IMG/VR virus record: IMGVR_UViG_3300047552_002051
Span: 1-35,422 of that record
Reading direction: 5' to 3' (one strand)
DNA length: 35,422 nt
Source of the DNA: a virus
Shown here: piece after piece, positions 1-28,386 of the stretch
Layout of the letters: the number at the start of each line of letters is the position of its first letter
How positions within the stretch are numbered: position 1 is the first letter of the stretch
Position numbers and translations under genes: made by a program
Notes under the pieces: model-generated
The model's database searches: none
What the model was told of the DNA's origin: nothing
The model's input: the letters and a program-made list of their open reading frames with translations, nothing else

Positions 1-22
1 GACTATAGGAGTAAACCAGTTA
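1..22 (+). promoter_or_regulatory. Truncated promoter at window edge (copy of the 10.5-kb promoter)
   Basis: The first 22 bases match 10517-10538, where they form the end of the -10 box (TAGACT) and the transcript start of a full TTGACA-18-TAGACT promoter. The window therefore opens inside the -10 box of another member of this promoter family. The -35 box and operator would lie just outside. It probably drives the small genes that start at 37. Confidence 0.6.
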
Positions 23-425: not shown

Positions 426-575
426 ATGAGAGTTAAGCGACTAACCAAAACATCGACAGTAAGGTTTGAGCCAGCTATGTGGGAAGAGATAGAAACCTTT
501 TGTACTGACCACAGCTTATCCGTAGCGGCATTTTTACGAGATTGCGCCATAAGACACGTTAGAGAGCATATCTAG
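426..575 (+). CDS. Ribbon-helix-helix (CopG/Arc-like) DNA-binding protein, 49 aa
   Basis: Translation from ATG 426 gives a basic N-terminal strand (RVKRLTKTSTVRFEP), then a helix (MWEEIETFC) and a second helix (SVAAFLRDCAIRHVREHI). This is the strand-helix-helix layout of RHH repressors at their usual size. Such proteins bind short operators as dimers and often autoregulate. It is one of four RHH-type genes in the window (also 15546, 20874 and 27934), none an obvious duplicate of another. The target is unknown; the dispersed TACTA-NNN-TAGTA sites are candidates by inference only. Confidence 0.65.
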   Translation: MRVKRLTKTSTVRFEPAMWEEIETFCTDHSLSVAAFLRDCAIRHVREHI

Positions 576-1786: not shown

Positions 1787-1806
1787 CCAAAGCTCCAGGT
1801 TTGTGT

Positions 1807-1841
1807 TATACTAGGGTAGTACACCAACTATTACCCTAGTA
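1807..1841 (+). promoter_or_regulatory. Promoter -10 with paired palindromic operators upstream of the sigma-like gene
   Basis: A TATACT -10 box (1807-1812) overlaps a perfect palindrome TACTAGGGTAGTA (1809-1821). A second copy with one mismatch, TATTACCCTAGTA, occupies 1829-1841. The two centres are 20 bp apart, about two helical turns, and the pair ends three bases before the start codon. No convincing -35 box is present. The arrangement fits an operator pair that would block both initiation and early elongation. Confidence 0.6.
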
Positions 1842-3095: not shown

Positions 3096-3117
3096 GGTTA
3101 CTGACCTACTACTGGCT

Positions 3118-3132
3118 TACTACCCTAGTATA
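3118..3132 (-). promoter_or_regulatory. Minus-strand -10 box fused to a palindromic operator
   Basis: On the minus strand this reads TATACTAGGGTAGTA, with TATACT (3127-3132) merged with a perfect 13-bp palindrome (3118-3130). It has the same geometry as the sites at 1807 and 5544, but on the opposite strand, and it faces the 53-aa gene. Confidence 0.55.
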
Positions 3133-3171
3133 ACACACTACTGGCGGGTTTAGGTAATTTTGGTTTACCCC

Positions 3172-3201
3172 TTGCCATTACTGAGGTGGTAGTGTTATAC
3201 T
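3172..3201 (+). promoter_or_regulatory. Family-I promoter (TTGCCA-18-TATACT)
   Basis: The -35 box TTGCCA (3172-3177) and -10 box TATACT (3196-3201) are 18 bp apart. The spacer and downstream bases (TGTAGGAGTAAC) align with the promoters at 9655 and 10491. The spacer palindrome is degenerate here (TACTGAGGTGGTA). It drives the 3233-5525 gene pair, which has an AAGG ribosome binding site. Confidence 0.65.
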
Positions 3202-3232
3202 GTAGGAGTAACAGAGAAAAGGACTCAAGGTC

Positions 3233-3883
3233 ATGGCTACAGTATGGGACTTAGCAGAACAGTTGGAAATTGAGACACAAGAAGCAGGTATGAACTTAGG
3301 TTTTGCCTTTGACTTTACCGAGAGAGCTAATGTTGAGACATTGCCAGACAGCCTACCCAGTAAAGCAGCTATGTTAGAGGTACTGGGGGGGTGTCGCTAC
3401 ACTAAGGCAGTAGATAGCTTAAGCCGTAGTGAGTGTTACCTCTACTTAGGTCACGCTAAGAAGTGGCACAAAGCAGCTTTTGATAGTAGCGAGGCGGTAC
3501 AGTTTGCCAAAGGGTTAGCTCAAGATGTGGGTAAAAAGTTCAACTTGTCCGGTGTGCCTCTGGCTATCTTGCGTAATATGGTACTGGACATTTACCCCAA
3601 TGCCTTGCCAACCCTAATCAGCAAAAGCAAAACCACAGCTACTAGCACTATGGTCAACTACCGGGATATGCAAGATACCTTACGAGTAGTCAAACAGATG
3701 GGTCTGACCAGTGTCAAAATTAAACTCAACGGTACAGCTAGCCAGATGTATGACACTATGGCTCAAGTGTTTGGACAGGACTGGGTTAGCAACTGGGGGG
3801 ATATTAGCAATACCACCCGAGTGTACCTAGAGACAGTCAAGAAAACCGCTAACACATTAAAGGCATTTATACCCAATGTTTAA
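3233..3883 (+). CDS. Hypothetical soluble protein, partner of the FtsK-like ATPase (216 aa)
   Basis: ATG 3233 has AAGG five bases upstream and a full promoter behind it. The protein is mostly helical with no membrane segment; the C-terminal part (DTLRVVKQMGLTSVKIKL to KTANTLKAFIPNV) suggests a small alpha/beta domain. It overlaps the ATPase gene by 8 bp, so the two are co-expressed and may act as one unit, for example as DNA-binding adaptor and motor. I recognise no family. Confidence 0.5.
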   Translation: MATVWDLAEQLEIETQEAGMNLGFAFDFTERANVETLPDSLPSKAAMLEVLGGCRYTKAVDSLSRSECYLYLGHAKKWHKAAFDSSEAVQFAKGLAQDVGKKFNLSGVPLAILRNMVLDIYPNALPTLISKSKTTATSTMVNYRDMQDTLRVVKQMGLTSVKIKLNGTASQMYDTMAQVFGQDWVSNWGDISNTTRVYLETVKKTANTLKAFIPNV

Positions 3884-5525: not shown

Positions 5526-5543
5526 TTACTGCCGGGGTTGTGC

Positions 5544-5558
5544 TATACTAGGGTAGTA
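5544..5558 (+). promoter_or_regulatory. -10 box fused to a palindromic operator
   Basis: TATACT (5544-5549) continues directly into TACTAGGGTAGTA (5546-5558), the same arrangement as at 1807. The start codon at 5576 follows closely. No -35 box is evident. Confidence 0.6.
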
Positions 5559-5737: not shown

Positions 5738-6170
5738 CTGTTATGTTGTATCGCTACTTGAGGAAACCGCAGAGACTCTAGAGGTATTACTGCCAGGGTC
5801 TGACACTACTAAGGTAGTAAAAGAGTTAGGTGACTGTCTGGCTTATATGTCACTAATATGTTATGTGTTAGGTAAACCCCTAGACAGCTTTATGAGTACG
5901 TTACCAGGTGGCATTGGTGATGGCTCTGGGGTTCTTGACCTGGTGCAATACCAAGTAAGCCTAGCAGGGTGTTACAAGCGCATTCTACGGGGTGACAGGG
6001 GCTTCACTATGGACACTTTGCTACTGTGTGTTATCCAACTTGTGCCTATTGCTCGTAAGATAGCCTTAGCTCACTCTACCACTATTGATGGTGTTATGGC
6101 AGTAAACAGGGTCAAGTTGATGGCTAGAATGGCTAATGGGACTCAAAAGGGTTCCGGTAGTGACCGCTAG
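5661..6170 (+). CDS. MazG-like nucleotide pyrophosphohydrolase (169 aa)
   Basis: The helical motif LLEETAETLE (E34, E35, E38) followed by VKELGDCLAY (E55, D58) is the EExxE...ExxD magnesium site of the all-alpha MazG/dUTPase superfamily. The C-terminal VNRVKLMARMANG..GSG fits the substrate-loop end of phage MazG-like proteins. Such enzymes cleave (d)NTPs to monophosphates plus pyrophosphate, and in cyanophages they are linked to nucleotide supply or starvation signalling. A near-palindrome with perfect arms (5807-5819) is embedded in frame between the two halves of the active site (DTTKVV). Confidence 0.75.
   Translation: MTYNSYQDFIVTYSNTFHKVSADNLSCYVVSLLEETAETLEVLLPGSDTTKVVKELGDCLAYMSLICYVLGKPLDSFMSTLPGGIGDGSGVLDLVQYQVSLAGCYKRILRGDRGFTMDTLLLCVIQLVPIARKIALAHSTTIDGVMAVNRVKLMARMANGTQKGSGSDR
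5807..5819. repeat. Dispersed palindrome TACTAAGGTAGTA inside mazG-like CDS
   Basis: Perfect arms with core AGG; encodes D-T-T-K-V-V in the same codon phase as the other coding copies. Confidence 0.75.
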
Positions 6171-6278
6171 CCCTAACCTCGGGGTACTACTAGGGTGGCT
6201 CTATACTACCCTAGTAACGCTAAGGCATTAGCCTGGGTACTACTTATTAGACCATATTAAGTAAACCTATGGGTTAAT
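6171..6278 (+). promoter_or_regulatory. Leader of the capsid operon with palindrome and stem-loop repeat
   Basis: No gene is seen in these 108 bases. They hold an imperfect palindrome (TACTAGGGTGGCT at about 6188), a perfect one (6204-6216) and a GCTAAGGCATTAGC inverted repeat (6219-6232 region). About 30 bases from 6211 recur on the minus strand near 28393-28420. A weak -10 (about 6256-6261, TATTAA) may serve the capsid genes. Confidence 0.45.
6204..6216. repeat. Dispersed palindrome TACTACCCTAGTA, intergenic
   Basis: Exact copy in the leader before the capsid protease gene. Confidence 0.8.
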
Positions 6279-7277
6279 GTGAATAGCATAAAACGAGTTA
6301 ATGTATTAAAGGTTGACCCCAGTGTTGGAGTTACTAGGGACATGGTAGAGGGGCTAGCCTCAAGTTATGGGGAGTCAGGACATCGCGCCCCTGTAGTCTT
6401 AGGGCATCCAAAAGACAACGCCCCGGCTTGGGGTTGGGTGACAGCTTGTGAAGCAGAGGGCGACAACCTATTCTGTGACTTAGATGTAACCCCCGAGTTT
6501 CACACCCTGTTGTCTGAAGGTAGGTTTAGAGAGCGTTCTGTAGCCTTCTACGATAGTCAACCCCCTGTCCTACGGCATCTAGGCTTCTTAGGAGCCACAC
6601 CGCCAAAGGTCAAAGGTTTAGAGCCTATTAACCTAAGCGAGTACGACAACTCCACCACCGAGTATAAATACCTAGAACAATCAATAGAGCCAAACATGGA
6701 AGAATTTCTTAAGCCTGTGGTGCTGTTTGCACTATCTGAGCAGTTACCAGGACTTACCGCTAAGTCATTCAAAACTGAACCCGTACTCAAGGGGTCTGAC
6801 ACTATTACCGGAGTAGTGACCCTTAGCGACAATAGCGAGTACAACTACACCCTAACCAAGAGTGACCATAATGGGTGGGTAGCTAACACTACCTTGAGTA
6901 ACCCCGAGGTTATTGAGTTATCAGAGCGAGTAAAACAACTTGAGTCTTTACTAGCTGAGTCTGCCAATACTAAGCTAGTAGATAGCATCTATGACGACAA
7001 TAAGTTGACTGAAGCTATCTTGCCTAAGTGTGACTGTCACAAGTTACTGGCAGAGGACACCACTGGTGTAGCAGTAAAGTTACTTCAGAACTTGCCGCCT
7101 CTTGTCACCCCTGACACTGTTGGTACTAGCCAGGTAGTAGACTACCCTAGTAGTAGTAGTGGTCAGTTTGAGTTTGCAGAGAATACACTTTATGAGGTAG
7201 TGCAAGCCAAAGCCCTAGCCCTGGGACTAGACCCTAAAAACCCGGTACACTTTACCCAAGCTTTTCAATCGCTATGA
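6279..7277 (+). CDS. Mu gpI-like head maturation protease/scaffold (332 aa)
   Basis: The GTG start at 6279 gives an N-terminal domain (about 1-125) with GHPKDNAPAWGWV, FCDLDV, FRERSVAFY and a final GLEPINLSE. This is the pattern of Mu gpI-type capsid proteases, which cut scaffold and head proteins during assembly. Residues 140-332 look like a scaffold: a coiled coil (VIELSERVKQLESLLAES) and acidic, low-complexity linkers. An internal ATG at residue 139 (MEEFLKP) could yield a separate scaffold as in Mu Z, though no strong ribosome binding site is visible. It overlaps the cement gene (ATGA). Confidence 0.75.
   Translation: MNSIKRVNVLKVDPSVGVTRDMVEGLASSYGESGHRAPVVLGHPKDNAPAWGWVTACEAEGDNLFCDLDVTPEFHTLLSEGRFRERSVAFYDSQPPVLRHLGFLGATPPKVKGLEPINLSEYDNSTTEYKYLEQSIEPNMEEFLKPVVLFALSEQLPGLTAKSFKTEPVLKGSDTITGVVTLSDNSEYNYTLTKSDHNGWVANTTLSNPEVIELSERVKQLESLLAESANTKLVDSIYDDNKLTEAILPKCDCHKLLAEDTTGVAVKLLQNLPPLVTPDTVGTSQVVDYPSSSSGQFEFAENTLYEVVQAKALALGLDPKNPVHFTQAFQSL
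6968..6980. repeat. Dispersed palindrome TACTAAGCTAGTA inside a CDS
   Basis: Perfect arms with core AGC in the scaffold half of the protease gene; encodes N-T-K-L-V-D. Confidence 0.75.
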
Positions 7278-8592: not shown

Positions 8593-8626
8593 TTACTAGG
8601 GTACTATTGAGGTAGTACCTTAGTAA
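8593..8626 (+). terminator. Strong hairpin after the major capsid gene
   Basis: TTACTAGGGTACTA (8593-8606) can pair with TAGTACCTTAGTAA (8613-8626) over 14 bp with one G-U pair and a six-base loop. There is no U-tract, so attenuation or an mRNA-stabilising 3' end for the capsid transcript is more likely than full termination. Its arms are built from the same TACTAGGG units as the dispersed palindrome. Confidence 0.5.
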
Positions 8627-8638
8627 CCTTAAAAGTGT

Positions 8639-8944
8639 ATGGCAGTGGCAACAGTTAGCCAATTTATTGAGTATGTGGGACATCAGGAGGCAGTACAGCT
8701 TACCCACATAGACAACCCTGATATTGACAGTGTGGATTATGCTAAGGTTCAGGCAGGGTTAGATAGTGCCTACAACCTGTTGACCCAAAAGGTTAGCCCT
8801 AGCTGGTCAATGTTTGCAGAGGCACAAATACGCCTAACCCGCAAGTTACTCGACCCCTATACCACTAGGGAGGTAGTAACTATGGGCTATGATGAGGTAT
8901 GGGAGTGGATAGCTAACCGAACTAAGCTAATATTATGGATATAA
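8639..8944 (+). CDS. gp36-like head-tail connector (DUF1320-like, 101 aa)
   Basis: The gene lies right after the major capsid gene. The helical pattern (SVDYAKVQAGLDSAYNLL, then a long helix with AEAQIRLTRKLLDP, then a C-terminal basic/aromatic end) fits Mu gp36-type adaptor proteins that bridge portal and tail. No Shine-Dalgarno is seen before ATG 8639. It overlaps the next gene by 10 bp. The family call rests on position and helix pattern. Confidence 0.6.
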   Translation: MAVATVSQFIEYVGHQEAVQLTHIDNPDIDSVDYAKVQAGLDSAYNLLTQKVSPSWSMFAEAQIRLTRKLLDPYTTREVVTMGYDEVWEWIANRTKLILWI

Positions 8945-9654: not shown

Positions 9655-9684
9655 TTGACATTACTGGGGTAGTAGTGTTAGACT
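9655..9684 (+). promoter_or_regulatory. Family-I promoter with operator in the spacer (TTGACA-18-TAGACT)
   Basis: Consensus -35 TTGACA (9655-9660), an 18-bp spacer and TAGACT (9679-9684). The spacer holds TACTGGGGTAGTA (9662-9674), one mismatch from the dispersed palindrome. The promoter is almost identical to the one at 10491 and now drives only a pseudogene. Confidence 0.75.
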
Positions 9685-9714
9685 GTAGGAGTAACTAAGA
9701 GTTAGGTGAGTCAG

Positions 9715-10055
9715 ATGGCTAGCTTAGAAATCAGAGAATTTAATAACCAAGATGGGTATGTTTGCCTAACTGACATGGCTCTCAACATCTTGGGAGTTAC
9801 TAAGGCACTACCAGGGGTATCCAAGAGTATTATGGAGTAGCCGAGTTAGCAGAACAGTTGGGTTACAGCCCTGTATTGGTAGCTAAACATCGGTCAAGCT
9901 TAGGATGATTTGTTAAGAAAACCTTAAGCGACACTCAGTGCCACCGTGAGACTCGGTTCGTTAATGGCACTATGCGTCCGGTACTGGTTTACCCTCAAGG
10001 TAACTCCCAAGTTAACGCTGCTATCACAAACTACCTCAGTTGTCAAGACTTATAA
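9715..10055 (+). pseudogene. Broken copy of the antirepressor-like gene
   Basis: ATG 9715 opens a 41-codon frame (MASLEIREFNNQDGYVCLTD...) ending at TAG 9838. From 9837, in the +2 frame, the sequence reads VAELAEQLGYSPVLVAKHRS, almost the same as the C-terminal HTH of the intact gene at 10550 (VAELAEQLGYSPVQVAKYRS). An in-frame TGA follows (9906-9908), then KKTL...RFVNGTMRPVLVYPQGN to TAA 10053-10055, again matching the intact RLVNGTYRPVNLYDK. An internal deletion, a frameshift and a nonsense codon have therefore inactivated a paralogue. Confidence 0.8.
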
Positions 10056-10459: not shown

Positions 10460-10488
10460 AACCCTGGTATTGACACTAGGGGTTTTTT
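10460..10488 (+). terminator. Rho-independent terminator
   Basis: CCCTGGT (10462-10468) pairs with ACTAGGG (10475-10481), including one G-U pair, and is followed by GTTTTTT. It isolates the 76-aa gene from the promoter that begins three bases later. Confidence 0.7.
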
Positions 10489-10490: not shown

Positions 10491-10520
10491 TTGACATTAC
10501 TAGGGTAGTAGTGTTAGACT
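10491..10520 (+). promoter_or_regulatory. Family-I promoter with perfect palindrome in the spacer
   Basis: TTGACA (10491-10496), an 18-bp spacer and TAGACT (10515-10520). A perfect TACTAGGGTAGTA occupies 10498-10510, exactly between the two boxes where a bound protein would exclude RNA polymerase. It is the clearest evidence that the palindrome is an operator. Confidence 0.8.
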
Positions 10521-10549
10521 ATAGGAGTAAACCAGTTAGGGTTCCAACT

Positions 10550-11272
10550 ATGAGTAACTTACAACGATATGATGTTGATGGTTTTGAGTTAGTTATCGAC
10601 ACTCAAACAGGCGAGTCTTTTGCTACCACCTCTGGTTATGCTCGGATGGTGGGTAAGGACAAATCTACCATATCTCGGCGGTTACAAGGTGTTGAGCAAG
10701 GAGAGCTAAAAACGGCTGAACTCCTTACCCCAGGCGGGTTACAAGGTGTTGCACTTATCCCTGAATCTCTGATTGTCCAATGGGTAGTCAAGGATAGCCC
10801 CGAGTTAGCTACCAAAATGTTACGGGCTGGGGTTCGGGTTTTCTTACACCACCTGGCTGGCTTTAAAGTGACATCAGAAGCTACTCAGGTAGTACCGACA
10901 CTACCCCCTAGTGACATCCGACTAGCTAACCTTAAAGCTAGCTTAGAGTATTTTGACATTGACATCAGTAACCCTCGCCTTAAGCAATCATTACAAGACT
11001 TGGCACTCAACACTATTGGCATACTACCCCCAGTAAGCAACTCTACTACTTATTTAGGGGTAGCCGAGTTAGCAGAACAGCTAGGTTACAGTCCGGTACA
11101 GGTAGCTAAGTATCGCTCTCAGTTGGGCAAGTACGTTGTACAGGTTACAGGCATTGAGCCAATCAAAGAGAAACGCCTGGTTAATGGTACTTACCGCCCT
11201 GTCAACCTGTATGACAAGTGTAACCATGATGTAGTGGATGCCATTAACGCCTTTTTTGAGAATGCTGGTTAA
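10550..11272 (+). CDS. Phage antirepressor/Rha-like regulator (240 aa)
   Basis: ATG 10550 is preferred over an in-frame TTG at 10487, which lies upstream of the promoter. Residues 20-50 include FATTSGYARMVGKDKSTISRR, an HTH-like segment. Residues about 70-110 have WVVKDSPELATKMLRAGVRV then FLHHLAGF, typical of phage antirepressor/Bro-type proteins. A second HTH lies near 190-220 (YLGVAELAEQLGYSPVQVAK). It is monocistronic, with terminators on both sides. A DNA-binding or repressor-neutralising role is likely. Its broken duplicate lies at 9715. Confidence 0.7.
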   Translation: MSNLQRYDVDGFELVIDTQTGESFATTSGYARMVGKDKSTISRRLQGVEQGELKTAELLTPGGLQGVALIPESLIVQWVVKDSPELATKMLRAGVRVFLHHLAGFKVTSEATQVVPTLPPSDIRLANLKASLEYFDIDISNPRLKQSLQDLALNTIGILPPVSNSTTYLGVAELAEQLGYSPVQVAKYRSQLGKYVVQVTGIEPIKEKRLVNGTYRPVNLYDKCNHDVVDAINAFFENAG

Positions 11273-11298
11273 TCTAAATCTTAATTTACTCACCTAGT

Positions 11299-11328
11299 AC
11301 CCCTCTACCTTACCAGTAGAGGGGTTTT
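11299..11328 (+). terminator. Rho-independent terminator after the antirepressor-like gene
   Basis: ACCCCTCTAC pairs perfectly with GTAGAGGGGT around a seven-base loop and runs into TTTT. Confidence 0.8.
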
Positions 11329-11455: not shown

Positions 11456-11896
11456 ATGAAGAACATTTATACTTACTCTAGGGGTAGTATCACTACTAGC
11501 GGAGTAGACAAAACATTATTTACTGGTGGCAGAGAGGGACTCATAGTGACGGCAGTAACCAACCTTGGGTTAACCCTAAAGCTGTGGGCAGAGGGTGACA
11601 ACTTGCCTGTTACCTTGACTGGTAGCCTAGTAGGTCTAGGGCTAGGTTGGGGCGACAAGTTACTGGCTAATGGTACAGGTAGTCTAGCAGTAACTTTTTG
11701 GGGTAGCCTAGATAGCACTGTCCAGATTGTCAACACTAACCAACTAGAGGTCATAGTAGGTGCGCCTGTTGACTTTGCCAAAGCTGGTACTGTGGGGGGT
11801 GTGGCAGTATCCGCCAGTAGCCCCATTTGGATGAGACCTGGCATTTATACTGATTATGCTTTTAGCCTAGATGCTAATGGTAAGGTAATATGGTAA
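11456..11896 (+). CDS. Glycine-rich beta structural protein (146 aa)
   Basis: The protein is beta-rich and Gly/Thr/Leu-rich (GLTLKLWAEGDNLPVTLTGS, GTGSLAVTFWGSLDSTVQIV) and lacks charged helices, as in phage tail or neck accessory proteins. It overlaps the large fibre gene by 7 bp (ATGG/TAA), so both belong to one virion operon. A role as fibre connector or baseplate protein is inferred from context only. Confidence 0.55.
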   Translation: MKNIYTYSRGSITTSGVDKTLFTGGREGLIVTAVTNLGLTLKLWAEGDNLPVTLTGSLVGLGLGWGDKLLANGTGSLAVTFWGSLDSTVQIVNTNQLEVIVGAPVDFAKAGTVGGVAVSASSPIWMRPGIYTDYAFSLDANGKVIW

Positions 11897-14133
11897 CTAT
11901 TGTTGGACAAGTATTAGAACCCTCGGGACTAGCCACTACAGCACCCTTTAAGGTGTGGCTGGTAAATTATGGCACTGACCCTGTAAACCACCGCCTGTAT
12001 GTCAGCCCTAGCCCACAGATAGTGACCCCAGACCCCATAACTGGTCAATTTGAGTTTGAGGTGTGGGCTAACGTTACTGCTGATGTACCCTGCTACTACC
12101 GAGTACAGTTTGACTTTGGATTGCAACTTAAGCTAGCCGTGCCAGCCAGTGACACCCCCTTAGAGTTTACTGACCTAATCATAGATGAGACCATTGAGTT
12201 ACTGCCTGGTATCCTTAGCAGGGTGGCTAGGTTAGAGTCAACAGGGGGAGTAGTTATACCTACTCAAAACTTCTCTGTAGGGGGTTGGTTAACTAGCCCA
12301 CCTGTGGCATATGACGGTACTGCACCAGTAGTCATACCAGTAGATAGCATCAATAGTCAAGGGCTTACTGGGGTAATACCTAAACCCCTACTGAGTGGTA
12401 GCTACAATATTACCCTAGACAATGCCTTGAGTTTCGGGCAAGGGCTTACCGCTACCTCTGGTAGTTACTCTGGGGGTAGTGCCAATTCTGTATCAGTAGA
12501 TGCCACTATTGCCAGACGCTCTGATGTGGCTATGAGTGACCCCCGAGAATGGCTAGCAAGTACAGTTAGTCAATTAGAGGCAGAGACGGGTACAGGCGTA
12601 GGTCGTAGAGCATGGACACCCGAGAGAGTCTTTCAGGCTATTACTGCATGGGTATCTCAATACCTACCTAGTGCAACCTTGGGTGAGGCGGAGTTAGGCA
12701 CTGGCACAAATAACCTTAGTTGGTCACCTAGCAAGATTACTGCCCTAGTGTCAGCATATACCAGTAGTAATGGGGTTACGAGTGTAGCTGGCAAGGTTGG
12801 GGATGTGTCCCTAGTACCTACCGATATTGTAGGCTTAGGTGACGTAACCAATGCAAGTAATTTACTCACGGGGTCTGTCAATAGTACCTTAGTACCTTTG
12901 GCTCAAAGTGCCACTAGGTTGGCAACAGCCAGGACTGTTAATGGTGTACCTTTTGATGGTACTGCTAACATAGTAGTGCCTACCCCCAGTAGTTTGACCT
13001 TTGGTACTGGACTAACTGGCGGGGTGTTTAATGGTAGCACTGCCACAACACTGGCTATTGATACTGGGGTAGTAGTGCAACAGTCCGATAGTAGACTGAC
13101 TGATGCCCGAGAGTGGTCAGCTAGCACTGTCACCCAAGCTGAGGCAGAAGCAGGTACTGCTACAACTAGACGGGCATGGACTGCTCAAAGGGTTACTCAA
13201 ACCATAGCTGCATGGTGGGCTAGTAGTGCCAACAAGGTTAAACTAGACAGTATTGCAACAGGGGCGCAAGTTAACACAGTCACAAGTGTGGCAGGTAAGA
13301 CAGGGGTAGTGACACTGGTCAAGGGTGACGTGGGTTTGGGTAATGTGGTTAACTCTGACCAAACTAATGCCAGTAACTTGGCTACAGGTGTCGTAGCTGA
13401 TGCTCGGCTCAGTTCTAATGTGGTTTTAAAAAACCAATCACCTGTGTTTACGGGTGGTAGAGTGACTCTAGGGAGACAAAATTCAGTGTCAGAGGGTGGT
13501 GAACTACAGATAAACTACCCCGAGAATAATGGTAGCACCACTACCTCAAGTTGGTATATTGACTGTCAGGGTACGGCTAGTAGCCCAAACCTTAGATTTT
13601 ATACTACGGATAGTGTAGGGGTGTCATCTACTGTTCTCCAATTAGCGCCTTCCGTAGTTAACGCTACCTCGACAACATCCGCAGCAAGTATTAAGACAGC
13701 AGGGGGTATTGCTTGCGCTCAAGACATTTACGCCAACAAAGTCATCTACACCCAAAGCGATGTCATTAGCTTTACCCCCTATCTAGAGGGTACTGGGTGG
13801 GGTTATGGGATACAACAGGGCGAGTATACCCGTACAGGCAGAGTGGTACACTTTTACTGTAGGCTAGATGTAAACCAAGTGGGGGTTGGTGGGCTTAGGG
13901 TACTAGGTTTACCATTTAACTGTAACAGTAATAGCTTTTCTGTAAATATGCGTACCACTGGCTTTCAAAACATACCCACTGGTGCTGTTTATACCCCTTA
14001 TGTGGAGGTAAATAAAACATCTATTGTTTTAAACTTTACACAAAATGGCTCAGTCGCCACTAATTTCACCCCCTTTTACTATACCTCCGCTTGCACAATG
14101 TATTTAGCTGGTCACTACATCACCAGCTCATAG
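11890..14133 (+). CDS. Tail fibre/appendage protein (747 aa)
   Basis: Residues 1-110 form a beta-rich virion-attachment region. The middle contains at least two copies of a fibre repeat: VTSVAGKVGDVSLV...GLGDVTNASNL near residue 297 and VTSVAGKTGVVTLV...GLGNVVNSDQTNASNL near 465. These are common in phage trimeric fibres. RTVNGVPFDGTANIVVP is another typical fibre segment. The C-terminal 120 residues (YLEGTGWGYGIQQGEYTRTG) look like a globular receptor-binding tip. The gene converges on the thymidylate synthase gene with a 6-bp overlap. Adsorption to the host surface is the expected role. Confidence 0.8.
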   Translation: MVTIVGQVLEPSGLATTAPFKVWLVNYGTDPVNHRLYVSPSPQIVTPDPITGQFEFEVWANVTADVPCYYRVQFDFGLQLKLAVPASDTPLEFTDLIIDETIELLPGILSRVARLESTGGVVIPTQNFSVGGWLTSPPVAYDGTAPVVIPVDSINSQGLTGVIPKPLLSGSYNITLDNALSFGQGLTATSGSYSGGSANSVSVDATIARRSDVAMSDPREWLASTVSQLEAETGTGVGRRAWTPERVFQAITAWVSQYLPSATLGEAELGTGTNNLSWSPSKITALVSAYTSSNGVTSVAGKVGDVSLVPTDIVGLGDVTNASNLLTGSVNSTLVPLAQSATRLATARTVNGVPFDGTANIVVPTPSSLTFGTGLTGGVFNGSTATTLAIDTGVVVQQSDSRLTDAREWSASTVTQAEAEAGTATTRRAWTAQRVTQTIAAWWASSANKVKLDSIATGAQVNTVTSVAGKTGVVTLVKGDVGLGNVVNSDQTNASNLATGVVADARLSSNVVLKNQSPVFTGGRVTLGRQNSVSEGGELQINYPENNGSTTTSSWYIDCQGTASSPNLRFYTTDSVGVSSTVLQLAPSVVNATSTTSAASIKTAGGIACAQDIYANKVIYTQSDVISFTPYLEGTGWGYGIQQGEYTRTGRVVHFYCRLDVNQVGVGGLRVLGLPFNCNSNSFSVNMRTTGFQNIPTGAVYTPYVEVNKTSIVLNFTQNGSVATNFTPFYYTSACTMYLAGHYITSS

Positions 14134-15282
14134 GGTCAAAATAGCGTTAGCCAGCCAAAAAGCATGACCAGTGCTTAAGTCAGGGTGATTTTTACTAATG
14201 TACCTTTGCAATAGTGCCTTAGTACCACAAGTATAGACCAAAGTATCGTTCAGGTAGCACTCATACTTACCATCCTTTGTGACCTTAAAGTAAAAGTAGC
14301 CTTGAGGGTCACACACAAACCCCCCAGTGCTAGGTCTGTCCCAATCATACACATGGGCATTTATACTTACTATGGTTAGCTTTCGGTTATCTAATGTTGG
14401 AAACCACTGGTAAAAGCAATAGGCTAGGGCTTGAGTGTTCATTAGCCATGCCCTGCCAATATCGTGTGAGCGAAAGATAGCTGTCAACTCGTTGTCAAAG
14501 TAATTTAGCTGAGTCAGACAAGGTATGCCCGCAGGTTCACCCCCCGAGGTACACTGGTCTAGTAGTGTCACTACCCTTTGAGTGCTGAACTCTACACCTT
14601 CTGTTATCTTGTGCAGTTGGGGCATTATCTTTTGACCATAAGTGTAGCTAACACCAGGGTCACTAGGGGGGTCTGCTAATACCCATTGGGTAAAATACTC
14701 TTGCCAATCAGGTAGAGGTGGGTTAGTTAGGGTTACTACTTGGTTAGTCAGTGCTGTAAACTTGCGGTCTGCATAGTGCTTACCTTGGGTCAATACCTTG
14801 TGCATTAGAGATTGCTGATATCTGACATACACATCAGAATTGCCGCCAGCATTATTACTCGGGGGGTACTGCAATGCTGCCTTAGTAAACCCTGTTGGTA
14901 CTGCCAAAGGTTCAACAGGTAAGTCAAAAGTGACACTGACTGCAAGCCCCGACCCCTTGATTGCATCATAAGCGGCTTTAAAACTTTGGCTAACCAGGTC
15001 ATAGCGAGTTAGGGCTAGTAGGTAAACACGGTCTACTAGAGGGTTACTGGTAATACTGTTGAGTAACAGTTTAACGCCTGCCTCTGCATTGTACAAAGTC
15101 CCTTTGGCAAGTAAGTTGGGTACAATGTCCCAGTCAAACCTACTAGGCTTACTCCAACCTGTCACCAATATAGCATAAGTCCCATTGGTACTAGGCTGGG
15201 GGTTTGGGTTTACTTGAACATAACCATTACCGTTGTTTGGCGGACTATCAGAAACTGTCACTAAACTGTCAACACTATACAT
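14128..15282 (-). CDS. Archaeal-type thymidylate synthase-like protein with DUF4346-like tail (384 aa)
   Basis: ATG 15282 is chosen over an upstream TTG (15303). Residues 37-120 (YAILVTGWSK..., NAEAGVKLLLNSITSNP) resemble the MtrA-like domain seen beside archaeal TS. Residues 240-315 carry the TS core: catalytic Cys255 in IPCLTQLNYFDNEL, phosphate-binding FRSHD (about 270-274), the dUMP-selecting Asn near 282 (AWLMN) and the HVY near 310. An Asn rather than Asp there fits dUMP as substrate, so TS or dUMP hydroxymethylase. The end (GFVCDPQGYFYFKV...ALLQRYIS) looks like DUF4346. The tmk gene lies upstream in the same strand group. The residue-level assignment is by eye. Confidence 0.65.
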   Translation of the reverse strand: MYSVDSLVTVSDSPPNNGNGYVQVNPNPQPSTNGTYAILVTGWSKPSRFDWDIVPNLLAKGTLYNAEAGVKLLLNSITSNPLVDRVYLLALTRYDLVSQSFKAAYDAIKGSGLAVSVTFDLPVEPLAVPTGFTKAALQYPPSNNAGGNSDVYVRYQQSLMHKVLTQGKHYADRKFTALTNQVVTLTNPPLPDWQEYFTQWVLADPPSDPGVSYTYGQKIMPQLHKITEGVEFSTQRVVTLLDQCTSGGEPAGIPCLTQLNYFDNELTAIFRSHDIGRAWLMNTQALAYCFYQWFPTLDNRKLTIVSINAHVYDWDRPSTGGFVCDPQGYFYFKVTKDGKYECYLNDTLVYTCGTKALLQRYISKNHPDLSTGHAFWLANAILTL

Positions 15283-15323
15283 GGTACTAAGGGGGTAGCT
15301 CAATACTACCCCAGTAAGGTTTA

Positions 15324-15839: not shown

Positions 15840-16339
15840 AGTCTTTTTTCCTTAAGTTGGGTTAATAGTTGCGAGTAAACCATATTTTGGGTTAAGTTAG
15901 CGTTAATTACAATATCCCACCCTAGTTGATGGTAGCCATTAATTAACTCTTGCTTTACCCCTAGACTAGCCAAGTCGTACCCTAGTGGGTCAACCTCAGC
16001 CCTAGCTATGGCTCTATCTAGTGACACCTGGGCAGACACATCTAGCAGTATACTGATGTTAGCCATAGGTAGCCTGTTGGCTGTCTGTAGGTACAGGTTT
16101 AGCGGCATCCCATAAACCAGGCTACTAGGTAGGTATCGGTCAAGTACCCAATCCTGGTCAGGTGTAGGTGGGTTTTCTATCAGGTCATAAGCCATAGCCA
16201 ACTGTAAATTATGGTTAGCTAGCTTTTGGTCAAGGTCATAGGGGTAGTGTCGGTAGGTGTACCCTAGCTCAGTAGCTAACCTTTTAGCTAGGGTGGTTTT
16301 ACCGCTACCATCAATACCCTCGATAACAATAATAGTCAT
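15830..16339 (-). CDS. tmk: Thymidylate kinase (dTMP kinase, 169 aa)
   Basis: The P-loop GIDGSGKT (8-15) follows the hydrophobic strand TIIVIE. DRYLPSSLVYG (67-77) matches the DR(Y/F) substrate motif of TMP kinases, and SLDRAIAR supplies the lid-type arginines. The enzyme phosphorylates dTMP to dTDP with ATP. At 169 aa it is shorter than the bacterial enzyme (about 205-215 aa), mostly in the C-terminal part. It overlaps its upstream neighbour at TAATG and lies beside the thymidylate synthase-like gene, so together they would make dTDP. Confidence 0.85.
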   Translation of the reverse strand: MTIIVIEGIDGSGKTTLAKRLATELGYTYRHYPYDLDQKLANHNLQLAMAYDLIENPPTPDQDWVLDRYLPSSLVYGMPLNLYLQTANRLPMANISILLDVSAQVSLDRAIARAEVDPLGYDLASLGVKQELINGYHQLGWDIVINANLTQNMVYSQLLTQLKEKRLCC

Positions 16340-16782
16340 TAGCTAATAGCTCCTAAGTACAAATCTTGAGTAGTAAGAGGCATAACAGACTTAGCGTAGT
16401 CCCCTAAAGTCAAAACCTCAGTCTCAACTAGGGTGGACAACTGGTAACGGTTACGGTACTCTACCTTGTAGTAGCCTGACTTAAGCCGAGTGGTGATTAC
16501 TTTGACCTGTGACTCTAGTTTACGCAAGCTAAGGGCATAACGCACTGCCTCTAAGTATTGGTTACGGTATTTGACCCATGACCCATCAGTTTGTGACTTG
16601 ACCCGCAGTGTGCCATCAATGTCTACTAACCACTTGCGTACCACTACTTTACCGTTAGCTGGGTTAACAGTGCTAATGTAACCGTGCTGAGTAGAGCAAA
16701 AGCTAACTCGGTGATTGGCTAACTCTACTGGCTGAATGGTTTGGCGGGTTTTGGTTAATGCTGCCCAAAAGATGTCGGTCAT
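16339..16782 (-). CDS. Hypothetical protein, first gene of the tmk operon (147 aa)
   Basis: The gene has a consensus promoter and an AAGGAG ribosome binding site, the best expression signals in the window. The protein is basic and strand-rich (GYISTVNPANGKVVVRKW, KSGYYKVEYRNRYQLSTLV) with a Leu/Ser C-terminus. No catalytic motif or membrane segment is visible. It may bind DNA or RNA, given its charge, but no family is recognised. Confidence 0.6.
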   Translation of the reverse strand: MTDIFWAALTKTRQTIQPVELANHRVSFCSTQHGYISTVNPANGKVVVRKWLVDIDGTLRVKSQTDGSWVKYRNQYLEAVRYALSLRKLESQVKVITTRLKSGYYKVEYRNRYQLSTLVETEVLTLGDYAKSVMPLTTQDLYLGAIS

Positions 16783-16888: not shown

Positions 16889-17905
16889 ATGTCAATATTA
16901 AAGTCAGAGGTTGCCTACCCTTATTACCCAGGCAAGTATAGCCTATACCCCGAGTACACTAACCTAACATCAGAGGCAGAGTTACGTCAGGTGCTTTTTG
17001 ATGGTAAGGTCATAGAGTGCCTACAGAGTTTACTGGGGGAGTTGTTGCAGTACCCCTTGAGTAACCTAGAACCTAAGTCAGGCAAAGACCAACTAGAGAC
17101 AGTGATGCAGGTCACAGATAGCCTTGACCTTAATCACATCGCCTTGAGTGTGGCTAGTGCCATGATAACGGGCTACTCTGTCAGTGAGCTAGTATGGGGT
17201 AAAGTGGGTGACAAGTTGTTGCCTACTAAGTTACTGCCGAGAGACTTAGAGGTACTTAGGTATCAGTTTAGTGACCCTACTAGGGGGGTAGTGCCATACC
17301 TTTGGGTAAGAGGTCAGGAGATAGCGATACCACCTCGTAAGTTCATAATAACTAGATATTGGTCGATACCCAATAGTGACCCTTATGGTAATGGGCTAGG
17401 AGAGGCATTGTATCCACTGGTCAAGCTTAGGGGTCAAGCTATCCTAGACTGGGGTAAGTTTAGTAGCACCTATGCCGAGCCAGTTAGGGTAGGTACTTAC
17501 CCTGTTAATGCGTCAGATGAGGAGATACAGCAGTTTAATAAGTTTATCCAAGCTTTGGGTACAGCTAGGGCTGTTACTTTGCCAGAGGGTTTTACTGTTG
17601 AGTACATTGACCCCCCCAAGAGTACCACAGGGCTACAGGCTGACCTTTACAACACCATCAATCAAGATATTAGCCTACTGATATTAGGTGAGGCTACGGC
17701 AGGCAAAACAGACCCTGGAAATAAAGCAAAAGATACGGTTAGTGCTGACTTAAGGTCTACCAGAGCCAAGATGTTAGGCAGGTTACTCACTGACACCCTC
17801 AATACTACCCTAGTAACTTGGATACAGCAGTTAAACTACCCCCTATTGCCACCTTGTAAACTGGCTTTTGATTATGGACAAGTGGAGCGACAAGTACCTC
17901 AATAA
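16889..17905 (+). CDS. Phage portal protein, DUF935/Mu gp29-like (338 aa)
   Basis: The portal signature includes a crown/stem region with GYSVSELVWG and RKFIITRY, then DPYGNGLGEALYPLVKLRGQ and GTYPVNASDEEIQQF. This matches DUF935 portals, which form the dodecameric ring through which DNA enters the head. At 338 aa it is shorter than the usual 450-520 aa, mainly at the C-terminal barrel. It overlaps the next gene. In Mu-like phages TerL lies upstream on the same strand; here TerL is downstream and convergent. Confidence 0.85.
   Translation: MSILKSEVAYPYYPGKYSLYPEYTNLTSEAELRQVLFDGKVIECLQSLLGELLQYPLSNLEPKSGKDQLETVMQVTDSLDLNHIALSVASAMITGYSVSELVWGKVGDKLLPTKLLPRDLEVLRYQFSDPTRGVVPYLWVRGQEIAIPPRKFIITRYWSIPNSDPYGNGLGEALYPLVKLRGQAILDWGKFSSTYAEPVRVGTYPVNASDEEIQQFNKFIQALGTARAVTLPEGFTVEYIDPPKSTTGLQADLYNTINQDISLLILGEATAGKTDPGNKAKDTVSADLRSTRAKMLGRLLTDTLNTTLVTWIQQLNYPLLPPCKLAFDYGQVERQVPQ
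17803..17815. repeat. Dispersed palindrome TACTACCCTAGTA inside the portal CDS
   Basis: Exact copy; encodes N-T-T-L-V-T near the portal C-terminus, in the usual codon phase. Confidence 0.75.
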
Positions 17906-18203
17906 GTTGACAGAAGGTGACTTACTCACCCAGTACCTAGCTACCCGGCTAGTAGACTTGGCTAGGACTAATCTGCTGACTAGCTCCAATATGGATGGTA
18001 GCCCTATGACCACCAACAAAAATACAGGCAAGCCCCTGATTGACACTGGGGCTATGCTAGGGTCTATTGCTAGGGTTGACTCAAGTGCTGTAGTAAATGT
18101 CCCCTATGCTGCCAAGGTACAAAGTGAGACTGGTAACTACTTTATCACTAAGCCACCGGTAGCACTACTAGGGGGGTGGCTAGAAGACTTCCTTAGTAAA
18201 TAA
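17874..18203 (+). CDS. Virion morphogenesis/gp10-like protein (109 aa)
   Basis: ATG 17874 is preferred to TTG 17868. The motif PLIDTGAMLGSI followed by VPYAAKVQSETG is shared by Mu gpG-type and HK97 gp10-type proteins, which act in head-tail joining or head completion. Its length is typical for the gp10 group. It overlaps the portal gene by 32 bp and converges with the TerL gene, sharing 11 bp at the ends. Confidence 0.65.
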   Translation: MDKWSDKYLNKLTEGDLLTQYLATRLVDLARTNLLTSSNMDGSPMTTNKNTGKPLIDTGAMLGSIARVDSSAVVNVPYAAKVQSETGNYFITKPPVALLGGWLEDFLSK

Positions 18204-19395
18204 TCTTTGCTTGACCCAACCTGTTACTGCTAGGGTGTTGCTGTCCTAGTTGGGTAACTTGCCATTGCCTAATACAATCTAGCTGTTGACTGCTAGGCGT
18301 TACCCCTACTGGTACACTTGTGGTGATACTGGGGTAGTAGTCGGGTATTGGCTTAGTAGGTACTAGGGTAAGCTGGTATGGCAGTAGTGACTTGAGACCA
18401 GGGGTAGTAGCGATAGGATGGTTGGTATACAGCGTGTTAACATATGGCAACTCTTTGAGTCTTAGCAGTAGGTCATTGAGGGTATCGCAGTCTACTAGGT
18501 GGGTACAACAGTGTTGGTGAAATAAGCCTAGAGTTCCATTGTACCAAAGCCCACTACTGGGTGGGTAGTCAGGTGGTGTGTGAGTAAAGGTCACGTTAGA
18601 TACAGAGTCAGGGGGTTGTCCCTGGTAAAGAGCTAGCCAGTCATACTCGGTACAACTTCGCTTTATTTCCAATAGCCTGCTTTGGGGGTAGAACTCGGGA
18701 AACAATGCGTCACCCAAGTTACGCTTTAAAGGGTCACTGCTAGGGTCTGTACAGAGGGCGGGTAAGTTGATGTACTCCCACCCTAGTTCTTCGGTAACGA
18801 TGCCAACCAAGTCATCAGAAGTCCACCTAGTCATCAGTATTATTACACTACCACCAGGTAACACTCGGCTAAACAAGGTACTGCCAAAGAACTCCCTAAC
18901 TACCTTCTTAAAGGCGGGACTGTGGGCTTCTTGACGGTTCTTAACGATATCATCGATAACCATTAGGTCAGCCCCAAAGCCCGTAATAGCACCACCTACA
19001 CCTACCCCCTTGTACCTACCATCTGACACTGTACGCCACTTAGAGCCACTCTTGCCGTCACCTGTTGGTACTGCTAGGGGATACAGGTACTTGTAGAGTG
19101 GACTGCTCATTAGGCTTCTAACGTCTACCCCAAAGTCAGAGGCAAGGTCAGCCCCATAACATATCTGCATTACTTGAGCATCAGGCTTGCGACCAAAGTA
19201 CCAGGCAGGCAGGGCTTTACTGATTATCTCTGACTTGCCGTGTCTAGGTGGTATACTGATGGCTAACCTAGCATTGCCCTCAAGCAAAGCATTCTGGATT
19301 TTACTGCATAGGTATCGGTGGACTAGGCTAGTAACATAATTAGGGTTGGTGGCTCCAATAAATGCTAGCAGGTTATTGTCTATTACGTCTTTCAC
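18193..19395 (-). CDS. Terminase large subunit ATPase, nuclease domain not recognisable (400 aa)
   Basis: The GTG start is at 19395. Walker A is PPRHGKSE (49-56), Walker B is LMVIDD (144-149), and the coupling motif is LMTRW (188-191). The ATPase domain ends at LYQGQPPDS (about 257-264). In TerL an RNase H-like nuclease with several acidic residues should follow, but the last 135 residues (many Pro, Thr, Gln and Ser; YPPSSGLWYNG, TNHPIATTPGL) show no such motif. The motor translocates DNA into the prohead through the portal. Cleavage may be supplied in trans (PD-(D/E)XK at 21172, HNH at 33364) or by a diverged fold. Confidence 0.8.
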   Translation of the reverse strand: MKDVIDNNLLAFIGATNPNYVTSLVHRYLCSKIQNALLEGNARLAISIPPRHGKSEIISKALPAWYFGRKPDAQVMQICYGADLASDFGVDVRSLMSSPLYKYLYPLAVPTGDGKSGSKWRTVSDGRYKGVGVGGAITGFGADLMVIDDIVKNRQEAHSPAFKKVVREFFGSTLFSRVLPGGSVIILMTRWTSDDLVGIVTEELGWEYINLPALCTDPSSDPLKRNLGDALFPEFYPQSRLLEIKRSCTEYDWLALYQGQPPDSVSNVTFTHTPPDYPPSSGLWYNGTLGLFHQHCCTHLVDCDTLNDLLLRLKELPYVNTLYTNHPIATTPGLKSLLPYQLTLVPTKPIPDYYPSITTSVPVGVTPSSQQLDCIRQWQVTQLGQQHPSSNRLGQAKIIY

Positions 19396-19530: not shown

Positions 19531-19914
19531 CTATTGTAGCATACTTTTGAGTTTAGTGGCTACCTTTATGATTCCGGGTTTATTGGTGGATGCTAGCAAC
19601 TCCTCTAGTAGCTCAATAGTAATGCAGTCAGGGGTCACATTAAGCTTACCTGCTAAGTAAGCCTTATCTCTGGCTATTGTGTCCCCGGGGTCGGGGCTAG
19701 AGGTGACTTCTGGCATAAATAGGTAATCTAGGCTACATTCTAGGGTTTGAGCCAGTTGAATGGCAGCTTGCAAGCTCAACTTACGTCTACCTGATAAGTA
19801 GGATGCCAGTGTGTCATACTTTATACCTGATGTTTTTGATAGGGTCTCTATGGTTAGACCCCTGACTTTTATTTGGGCAAACACTTTTACTAACTTATCT
19901 CGGTTATCACTCAT
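19531..19914 (-). CDS. Xre/Cro-CI-family transcription regulator (127 aa)
   Basis: MSDNRDKL at 19914 is chosen over an ATG 33 bases upstream because AAGGA precedes it and a -10-like box (TAGAAT, 19938-19943) sits over the upstream ATG. The HTH is LTIETLSKTSGIKYDTLASY then LSGRRKLSLQAAIQLAQTL, the usual five-helix Xre domain. A C-terminal half of 60 residues (CITIELLEELLAS, GIIKVATKLKSML) may oligomerise. It is the most likely lysogeny-type repressor here, although no divergent cro gene is seen. A TGT-rich inverted repeat lies in its promoter. Confidence 0.75.
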   Translation of the reverse strand: MSDNRDKLVKVFAQIKVRGLTIETLSKTSGIKYDTLASYLSGRRKLSLQAAIQLAQTLECSLDYLFMPEVTSSPDPGDTIARDKAYLAGKLNVTPDCITIELLEELLASTNKPGIIKVATKLKSMLQ

Positions 19915-19951
19915 GGTTCCTTGATTATGTTTAATCCATTCTAACACAGTT

Positions 19952-19965
19952 TGTTCAAATGTACA
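19952..19965. promoter_or_regulatory. Inverted repeat in the repressor promoter
   Basis: TGTTCAAATGTACA is self-complementary at 10 of 14 positions and lies just upstream of the -10-like box of the Xre gene. It could be the repressor's own operator and is unrelated to the dispersed 13-bp palindrome. Confidence 0.35.
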
Positions 19966-19992
19966 CCAAAACCAGAGTAGTGGTTACTCCGG
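19966..19992 (-). terminator. Terminator after the zinc-ribbon gene
   Basis: On the minus strand GAGTA pairs with TACTC, flanked by CC/GG, and TTTT follows. It lies just downstream of the stop at 20011. Confidence 0.55.
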
Positions 19993-20016
19993 TAGCTTGG
20001 TGTCTGGTGCTTATGG
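19992..20016. repeat. 25-bp inverted repeat, left arm
   Basis: The 25 bases here are exactly the reverse complement of 21105-21129. The arm includes the stop codon of the zinc-ribbon gene. See the right arm for the segment enclosed. Confidence 0.85.
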
Positions 20017-20610
20017 TGTGGTAAAGTTAGTGTTGCAGTCCTTACACTTAAACTTGAGTGACCCTTTGGCAGAGTTACAGTTAGGACACTTACCAGATTC
20101 AAAGTGAGCTAAGATAGCCTCTAACTCGGGGCTAGGTGACTCTTTAAGCCAATCTTCCTTTGTCCGGTTCTCTAGCTCAACTAACTTAGCATCTACTGCC
20201 TCATCCGATAATGTCACCCACTGACCATCTACCAGGGTACTACCCCAGTTGTCACAAATAGTGAACCATTTACCGATTGCCTCTGACTTACTCAAGGGTA
20301 CTACTGGTAGGCTATCTCGGTATGCCTTCTGTAACTTACAGTAAGCTTTGTAGTCCGATTCTAGGGTACTCTTAAGAGGTGATAAGCTAGGGTCTACTAC
20401 CATAGTACCGAGGTTTTGCAGTAGTAGGTCAGGGTAGTCAAACTCTTGAGTGTCACCTAGTAGGTTAAACAGGTCAACCAATAAGTTATTGTGGGCTAGT
20501 ATTAGCTCAATTTGTGCCTCTGTGTGACCCATAGTAAGCTTATCTACCCAAAAGCACAAGGGTTCGGGTAAGGAGTTAGTCCAATTCTCGTATCCAATGA
20601 AGTCAAACAT
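20011..20610 (-). CDS. Hypothetical protein with C-terminal zinc ribbon (199 aa)
   Basis: Residues 1-165 are acidic and helical (TEAQIELILAHNNLLVDLFN, SDYKAYCKLQKAYRD). The last 27 residues hold CPNCN then CKDCN, a four-cysteine zinc ribbon. Such ribbons serve DNA, RNA or protein contacts in phage regulators and replication proteins. It lies within the 1.1-kb segment bounded by the 25-bp inverted repeat, with a terminator directly after it. Family not recognised. Confidence 0.6.
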   Translation of the reverse strand: MFDFIGYENWTNSLPEPLCFWVDKLTMGHTEAQIELILAHNNLLVDLFNLLGDTQEFDYPDLLLQNLGTMVVDPSLSPLKSTLESDYKAYCKLQKAYRDSLPVVPLSKSEAIGKWFTICDNWGSTLVDGQWVTLSDEAVDAKLVELENRTKEDWLKESPSPELEAILAHFESGKCPNCNSAKGSLKFKCKDCNTNFTTP

Positions 20611-20873: not shown

Positions 20874-21032
20874 TTAGGCGGTTAGGTAAGGTTGTAGGGT
20901 CTCTCTGATGAACTCTGATAAAGTTATGTGACGTTTTGAGCATAGGTCACATAAGGTGTTGTAATCGGAATCACTAACCACAGTGGCGACTGTCTTAGTT
21001 AGCTTAATTGGTCTAGGGTGATATTTCCTCAT
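20874..21032 (-). CDS. Ribbon-helix-helix protein (52 aa)
   Basis: ATG 21032 gives a strand (LTKTVATVVSDSDYNTL) and the helix pair CDLCSKRHITLSEFIRETLQ, the RHH arrangement ending in the usual SEFIRE(T/A)L helix. Two cysteines in CDLC are unusual. The gene lies inside the inverted-repeat segment and upstream of the 66-aa gene. It is likely a DNA-binding repressor of its own operon. Confidence 0.6.
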   Translation of the reverse strand: MRKYHPRPIKLTKTVATVVSDSDYNTLCDLCSKRHITLSEFIRETLQPYLTA

Positions 21033-21171
21033 GGTCGTTAATTTAGATTAATGTGTGTGTGCTATAAAGTAGTACCCACTTCTCATAATCACAAGGCTAA
21101 CCCCCCATAAGCACCAGACACCAAGCTACTGGATAAAACCCTAACCTAAATTAGCGGTACAATTGTACAAT
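21033..21171. promoter_or_regulatory. Intergenic region with 25-bp repeat and GTACAATTGTAC palindrome
   Basis: No gene is seen. It contains the right arm of the inverted repeat (21105-21129), a perfect 12-bp palindrome GTACAATTGTAC near 21154-21165 and a TATAGC -10-like box on the minus strand before the RHH gene. Confidence 0.5.
21105..21129. repeat. 25-bp inverted repeat, right arm
   Basis: Exact inverted copy of 19992-20016. The two arms enclose about 1.09 kb holding three small genes (zinc ribbon, 66-aa and RHH). No transposase is present, so an invertible or mobilisable cassette is only a possibility. Confidence 0.85.
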
Positions 21172-21678
21172 CTAGGGTAATTCAATTAACCCAATGTCCA
21201 ACCCTTGCAGGACATCCTTAGCGACCTGTGGCACTGTACCTATCAGAGCTACTACAGGGGTTCTGCCAGTAGTATAGGAGTAGGCTAGCACTTGACCCAT
21301 AGCATGCTTCCAGTTAGCAGCCTTTTTAACCTCTATGACCAACTCTGGAGTCATAATGTCTACAATGCCCGTTTCTATGGCTACCTCTTTGGCAGAGTCA
21401 GGGTAGGTGTGCCAAAGGTAGTCACGATAGACCCACTCTGGCACTACCCCTGATATCCCATAAGTGAGCCAGAGTAGTACCATAAGGTAGTGGTCAGAGT
21501 AACCCCGTAGGCTACCCTGGGGGTCTAGGACTCTGTATCCTAAGCTAGGCTTACCCACATATCTACCACCGCTACGGTCACTAGGGGGGTATCGCAGTAG
21601 TGTGGCAGTAACAAAAGTAGGTGACTCAAACCTAACTGAATCACCCACGCTCTTAGGTATAAATACTAATCTGTCCAT
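21172..21678 (-). CDS. PD-(D/E)XK-fold nuclease (168 aa)
   Basis: The C-terminal half has GIVDIMT (D107) and VIEVKK (E116-K118), with a preceding Glu (98 or 102) and GQVLAY (Q129), the core of PD-(D/E)XK nucleases such as VRR-NUC/Holliday-type enzymes. The N-terminal half (about 1-75) includes RYPPSDRSGGRY, a proline-serine insert encoded by a variant of the GGGGGGT motif. It could resolve replication junctions or cut packaging DNA. The gene follows nrdB by 7 bp in the replication operon. Confidence 0.65.
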   Translation of the reverse strand: MDRLVFIPKSVGDSVRFESPTFVTATLLRYPPSDRSGGRYVGKPSLGYRVLDPQGSLRGYSDHYLMVLLWLTYGISGVVPEWVYRDYLWHTYPDSAKEVAIETGIVDIMTPELVIEVKKAANWKHAMGQVLAYSYTTGRTPVVALIGTVPQVAKDVLQGLDIGLIELP

Positions 21679-27224: not shown

Positions 27225-27257
27225 AACGCTTTGGTTGTTTGCTTGGTTTATACTACC

Positions 27258-27263
27258 ATTATA
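27258..27263 (-). promoter_or_regulatory. -10 box TATAAT for the 228-aa gene
   Basis: TATAAT on the minus strand, preceded by GTGT as in other promoters here, overlaps the stop of the upstream gene. No clear -35 box is seen. Confidence 0.4.
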
Positions 27264-28155: not shown

Positions 28156-28185
28156 AACCTTTGGTTTACTGGTAGGGTGTTGTAA

Positions 28186-28198
28186 TACTACTATAGTA
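28186..28198. promoter_or_regulatory. Palindrome TACTACTATAGTA upstream of an RHH gene
   Basis: Perfect arms with core CTA (TAG on the other strand). It overlaps the stop of the 56-aa gene and precedes the RHH gene. Confidence 0.6.
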
Positions 28199-28361: not shown

Positions 28362-28386
28362 GCTTTTACCTGTTGTCTACTCCTAC

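Follow-up and report, generated by a model that had tools for sequence, protein, structure and literature searches.

Introduction

Repressor-binding sites that occur many times over a phage genome are known from phage P1, in which operators for C1 are dispersed, and from phage phiC31, in which conserved inverted repeats overlap promoters. To our knowledge, the P1 and phiC31 sites number fewer than 30 copies and are not densely embedded in coding sequence. Neighbouring palindromic half-operators, occupied by pairs of dimers and overlapping the -35 and -10 boxes, are typical for ribbon-helix-helix (RHH) proteins of the Arc/MetJ/CopG type, 434-type helix-turn-helix (HTH) repressors, and the controller proteins of restriction systems. 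In cluster A mycobacteriophages, repressors of the L5/Bxb1 type employ stoperators, asymmetric 13-mers present just over 20 to about 30 times per genome, which are located in promoters or in short stretches between genes and function in a single orientation (PMC9283540; PMC6550527).

The stretch of DNA analysed here, called the window throughout, is a whole IMG/VR virus record (IMGVR_UViG_3300047552_002051; 35,422 bases, classed as linear), which carries a repeated 32-bp element. Like stoperators, which come nearest to it among known systems, this element is a single site that recurs over a phage genome, both at promoters and away from them, and its consensus drifts between related phages, as the stoperator consensus drifts together with its repressor. 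It differs from the asymmetric stoperators in being a symmetric double palindrome of 32 bp with about 85 to 100 copies, and from their promoter and intergenic location in that 53 of its 64 exact copies lie within genes. As it shares neither the asymmetry nor the location of stoperators, we do not class it as a stoperator system, although it may work in a related way. As in P1 and phiC31, many sites are dispersed over the genome, but the copies are more numerous and mostly in genes. The paired-dimer operators named above are local, with one or a few per replicon, unlike the element of the window.

Results

The window encodes a tailed phage with a capsid protein and a protease, portal, terminase, primase, ribonucleotide-reductase-like proteins, and a thymidylate kinase. 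Its closest cultured primases all belong to cyanophages, as do the top capsid matches, and judged by these two proteins the genome looks cyanophage-like. No integrase was noticed in the window, and the searches returned no bacterial genome matching this phage. Among relatives with a long contig, IMG/VR 3300001256_000037 (loci L017 and L018), hereafter rel6, comes closest; its capsid protein is 72% identical to that of the window, and it has many orthologous proteins in common with the window. Locus L005 represents this same virus (99.8%). A 3-kb piece, L004, shows 85% nucleotide identity to the window. Searches for further relatives by primase, reductase, and terminase led to rel6 or to distant phages only.

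The element can be written as TACT-N5-AGTA-N6-TACT-N5-AGTA and consists of two 13-bp palindromes whose centres lie 19 bp apart (consensus tTACTrsnGkrGTA-N6-TACymCnsyAGTAa). A spacing analysis of tetranucleotide pairs found its outer arms, TACT-N24-AGTA (28 bases apart), in 64 copies in the 35.4 kb as compared with 3.6 expected, a pattern which is palindromic and reads alike on both strands. In the same analysis TACT is followed by AGTA 9 bases later 42 times and, this half-site spacing excepted, no nearby spacing exceeds 14 (spacing 29). With a symmetric weight matrix derived from the window, 99 sites are found at a threshold reached about 4 times in order-2 simulations, and 85 sites versus about 0.75 at a stricter threshold. 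The window thus holds about 85 to 100 sites, as compared with about 1 to 5 in simulated sequence, at a density of 2.4 to 2.8 per kb or one per about 360-420 bp. In the matrix, information amounts to 1.1-1.9 bits per position in the outer arms and to 0.35-0.74 in the inner arms; since the inner arms are the weaker, the element is not simply two equal operators. The top matrix score (32.9) belongs to 15285-15316, and a CACT variant at 21579-21610 scores 32.3; the sites named in this text are a selection from the approximately 99 matrix sites.

The genome is rich in the words TACT, CTAG, and TAGTA, and two of the promoters described below (9655 and 10491) precede partly duplicated genes, as one would expect if the element were a by-product of codon or oligonucleotide bias and the promoters copies of one ordinary, duplicated promoter. 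However, the signal is limited to spacings 9 and 28 (and 29), and neither the order-2 simulations nor a shuffle of synonymous codons within genes, which lowers the in-gene count from 50 to 4.4 +/- 1.9, reproduces it. On the grounds of spacing specificity and synonymous shuffles, chance and codon bias were rejected, and we regard such an origin as scarcely credible.

Among the 64 exact copies, 10 are noncoding, which is near the noncoding share of the genome (11%). Elements are spaced at random along the genome, are distributed uniformly within genes, and are shared alike by rightward and leftward genes. They use two reading frames, the third being nearly empty, probably because the consensus would risk stop codons there. 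In-gene sites are found at 2119-2150, 2179-2210, 3381-3412, 5788-5819, 6784-6815, 6949-6980, 12863-12894, 13062-13093, 14856-14887, 17784-17815, 17923-17954, 18327-18358, 19302-19333, 27675-27706, 28677-28708, 30107-30138, 31953-31984, and 33261-33292, and intergenic ones at 6185-6216 and 11287-11318. One frame of the element encodes a recurring T-x-G-x-x-x-Y-P-P-S-like peptide in unrelated proteins (e.g., at 14856, 21579, and 27981), which could pass for a protein motif if the proteins alone were read.

Comparison with the relatives bears on how these copies arose. In alignments with rel6, protein stretches that are conserved and mostly free of gaps contain the in-gene sites 7045-7076 (without indel), 8847-8878, 11661-11692, 22298, 23962-23993, and, within the primase, 25214-25245 and 25728-25759; other sites fall in variable linkers with gaps nearby. 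At 11661-11692 rel6 has an element at the same codons (29702), and the site at 14193-14224, also in a gene, corresponds to a weaker rel6 element at the same aligned stretch (26711). As sites in conserved protein stretches come without indels, they arose in place. In L004, the intergenic site at 8594-8625 is identical, the in-gene site at 7124-7155 retains its outer arms with a diverged interior, and some sites have been gained, lost, or changed through point changes. Element arms are kept there in 22 of 27 cases as compared with 51 of 88 for isolated tetramers (p=0.02), a figure that pools both directions of comparison and is indicative only.

The copies might have spread into genes and intergenic regions by insertion, as mobile or amplified palindromic repeats. 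In favour of this, 10 of the 64, the three promoters included, resemble another copy beyond the element more than column-shuffled controls do; some long, near-identical intergenic repeats of rel6 (L005 matches several places in rel6) point in the same direction. The other 54 copies are no more alike than the controls, flanks share almost no sequence, interiors are variable, and most in-gene copies align ungapped in conserved proteins, all of which, together with the point changes seen in L004, speaks against insertion. It was rejected for most sites, as the protein alignments are ungapped and sites are not present or absent in the manner of insertions, and as a general origin we consider it highly improbable.

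An inverted repeat could also fold on either strand, so that elements might act as RNA hairpins or DNA cruciforms in termination, processing, or attenuation. Yet the 64 copies show no base-pair covariation between positions 5-9 and 24-28, no Rfam match was obtained, and the element is used alike in genes of both directions. We hold such a role to be very unlikely; with covariation absent from these positions, double-stranded DNA recognised by a protein is a better fit than an RNA hairpin. As judged from the sequence, selection acts on the element as a site in the DNA.

The earlier note on this DNA had started from promoters at 3172, 9655, and 10491 with 18-bp spacers, which direct reading and scanning of the sequence bear out. 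They read TTGCCA-18-TATACT (3172-3210, + strand, with the element at 3179-3210), TTGACA-18-TAGACT (9655-9693, +, element 9662-9693), and TTGACA-18-TAGACT (10491-10529, +, element 10498-10529). Each matches the consensus at 10 of 12 positions and has TG preceding the -10 box (extended -10), so that all three qualify by sequence as sigma-70-type promoters, for which -35 and -10 hexamers at 16-18 bp plus an extended -10 were taken as diagnostic. The truncated copy proposed at base 1 is likewise present: bases 1-13 (+ strand; GACTATAGGAGTA) match 10517-10529, the right half of promoter and element, and the repeat finder (D15) reports 96% identity over 25 nt. These promoters are partly related by descent through a gene duplication (D16) and therefore do not represent three fully independent events. 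Downstream of the 9655 promoter, 9715-10051 is a disrupted copy of a 10550-11272-like gene, 82% identical over a stretch of 68 nt, and a terminator-like hairpin at 10462-10481 closes the unit preceding the 10491 promoter. A perfect TTGACA-17-TATAAT match occurs on the minus strand (16837-16809), upstream of 16339-16782. The stretch 10512-10530 (GACTATAGGAG) bears a superficial likeness to a T7-type promoter core; no single-subunit RNA polymerase was noticed.

A palindrome does occupy the promoter spacer as described before, namely TACTGGGGTAGTA at 9655 and TACTAGGGTAGTA at 10491, and the spacer of 3172 holds TACTGAGGTGGTA. This 13-bp palindrome is not the unit: at the 10491 promoter the actual unit is the 32-bp double palindrome 10498-10529, whose left palindrome is the spacer and whose right one begins in the -10 box (TAGACT) and finishes with TATAGGAGTA. 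The TRTAGGAGTAA after the -10 box is conserved, as had been observed, but it belongs to the second palindrome copy and is no separate block. Similarly, the view that an operator rather than a random repeat is present holds insofar as a DNA-level site under selection is fused to -10 boxes. The position in the spacer is not its defining evidence, because in other cases (1804; 3135 on the minus strand) the palindrome extends downstream from within the -10 box, and most copies lie away from promoters. An operator confined to the spacer misses the second half of the site as well as its genome-wide distribution.

Fusion of the palindrome to extended -10 boxes goes beyond these promoters and involves at least six in the window. 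The pattern TGYTAKACT-N5-AGTA occurs 6 times in the window (1804+, 3193+, 5541+, 9676+, 10512+, and 3135-) as compared with 0.017 expected, and with the spacer arm added it occurs 4 times versus 0 in 60 simulations. At 1804-1841 (+), the palindrome 1809-1821, which belongs to a 33-bp variant (spacing 29) running downstream, is joined to an extended -10; at 5527-5558 (+), TGCTATACT is fused to the right half of the element and the -35 is weak; and at 3099-3135 (-), a leftward extended -10 is fused to the element 3099-3130, again running downstream. A further leftward arrangement (28379-28445, -) consists of TATAAT-GTAGGAGTA (TATAATGTAGGAGTA at 28392-) with the element 28414-28445 just upstream. 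In rel6, the fusion of extended -10 and palindrome occurs twice as compared with 0.03 expected. The fusions at window 1804 and rel6 1779 (-) precede orthologous genes and, with a palindrome that overlaps the -10 box and is conserved between relatives, qualify as promoters with a putative overlapping operator. The rel6 orthologue of 26538-27278 is preceded, at 13019, by TTGACA, TATACT, and ATAGGAGTAA; this promoter repeats TATACTATAGGAGTAA and comes without the spacer palindrome. In these fusions the -10 box itself thus incorporates one half-site of the proposed operator, the spacer palindrome being one of at least two geometries. A scan of viral contigs for the fused-promoter pattern found it, outside the relative, only in contigs without enrichment of the element, consistent with chance.

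When rel6 is scanned with the matrix of the window, 30 sites are found versus 3.25 in simulations, and a matrix retrained on rel6 gives 35 sites with a shifted consensus, in which position 5 is nearly always A and position 3 is C or G. There are no sites in rel6 between 4.2 and 13.5 kb. At 1914, 3283, 17430, 17892, 33423, and 33480, the element is contained in longer, near-identical intergenic repeats, which suggests local amplification at these places. No comparable dyad was found in the distant capsid or terminase relatives nor in A-HIS1, YPCBV-1, and Pam1.

Three proteins of the window come into question as binders. The first is a small RHH-like protein (27934-28155, -), whose rel6 homologue is 35% identical and passes the Pfam RHH_4 cut-off (25.7 vs 25), whereas the window copies stay below it; a predicted model shows the two helices at low confidence, and Foldseek gave no PDB match. 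An element lies within its gene (27981-28012), and the rel6 homologue has one at the aligned place; a second site just upstream of the gene start (28167-28198) says little, because many intergenic regions hold one. Two more short RHH-like reading frames, at 426-575 (+) and 20895-21032 (-), have LTKT in common with this protein. The second is a Bro-N/DdrC-like winged-helix protein (34390-35124, -) with a 48% identical homologue in rel6 and a paralogue at 650-1393; its alignment with 10550-11272 is weak. Its model (pLDDT 68) matches DdrC, a DNA-binding protein of Deinococcus, with Z 7.7-8.2, a likeness at the level of fold: whole-chain superposition is poor, and the N-terminal domain alone gives an rmsd of 3.5 over 89 residues. 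It also matches viral models named Bro-N with E around 1e-4. The RHH-like and Bro-N-like proteins are thus candidate binders conserved in rel6, as far as homology and predicted folds indicate. The third is an XRE/HTH_3 repressor-like protein (19531-19947, -), for which no homologue was found in the rel6 contig, which may be incomplete. Of an inverted repeat with 76-nt arms (19948-20023 and 21098-21173; 75% complementary), one arm closely precedes the gene of this XRE repressor and the other contains GTACAATTGTAC; the repeat may be a separate operator pair for this repressor.

Discussion

We lean towards the view that the element is the genome-wide site of a sequence-specific, phage-encoded protein which acts as a repressor at promoters and elsewhere coats the genome. 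Such a protein would bind as two adjacent dimers (a dimer of dimers), for which a symmetric site with exact spacing and variable interior, placed within genes, is what one would expect to be needed. At promoters, where the -10 hexamer includes the half-site TACT, the bound protein would exclude the sigma factor and so repress; by way of the many in-gene sites it would also be able to cover the genome, in lysogeny or early in infection. Silencing might proceed through a block of initiation and elongation, through DNA condensation, or both. As the sites, unlike stoperators, are random along the genome and uniform in genes, we find genome-wide coating or condensation no less plausible than a block of elongation. 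Against a purely regulatory set speaks that sites are not concentrated at operon starts or in gaps.

The same random spacing, the lack of preference within genes, the high density of mostly in-gene sites, and the fold-level likeness of the Bro-N-like candidate to DdrC would also suit an element whose role is structural for the whole genome, i.e., in condensation, packaging, partition, or marking of own DNA, with the promoter fusions as a secondary use. Such primacy of structure is doubtful, since chance would hardly produce the -10 fusions, one of which is kept at orthologous genes of the relative, and since rel6 keeps far fewer sites and has a stretch of its genome without any, which a uniform lattice would not predict. 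Recognition by a cyanobacterial host regulator or nucleoid protein instead of a phage protein might be considered for a phage that looks cyanobacterial by its primase and capsid protein. We judge it unlikely: NtcA, LexA, CRP, and HIP1 motifs are not enriched in the window, where GTA-N8-TAC (NtcA-like spacing) occurs 29 times versus 25 expected and a LexA-like pattern twice, the phages of the window and rel6 differ in consensus, and the element was found in no tested phage outside this lineage.

Returning to a phage-encoded binder, we put forward as a tentative extension that a 32-bp recognition code, spread genome-wide and mostly in genes, gives a single viral protein the means to coat, condense, or tag the DNA of the phage as a kind of dedicated viral chromatin, to which promoters are wired through their -10 boxes. 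Dispersed operators known from phages comprise a few tens of intergenic sites; new here is a double palindrome at 2.4 to 2.8 per kb in coding sequence that is fused to -10 boxes. If this is true, a recognition code at the DNA level constrains most genes of a virus, at the cost of free codon choice in them. The element offers a handle on silencing, condensation, or self-recognition of small phage genomes and a target for finding its binder.
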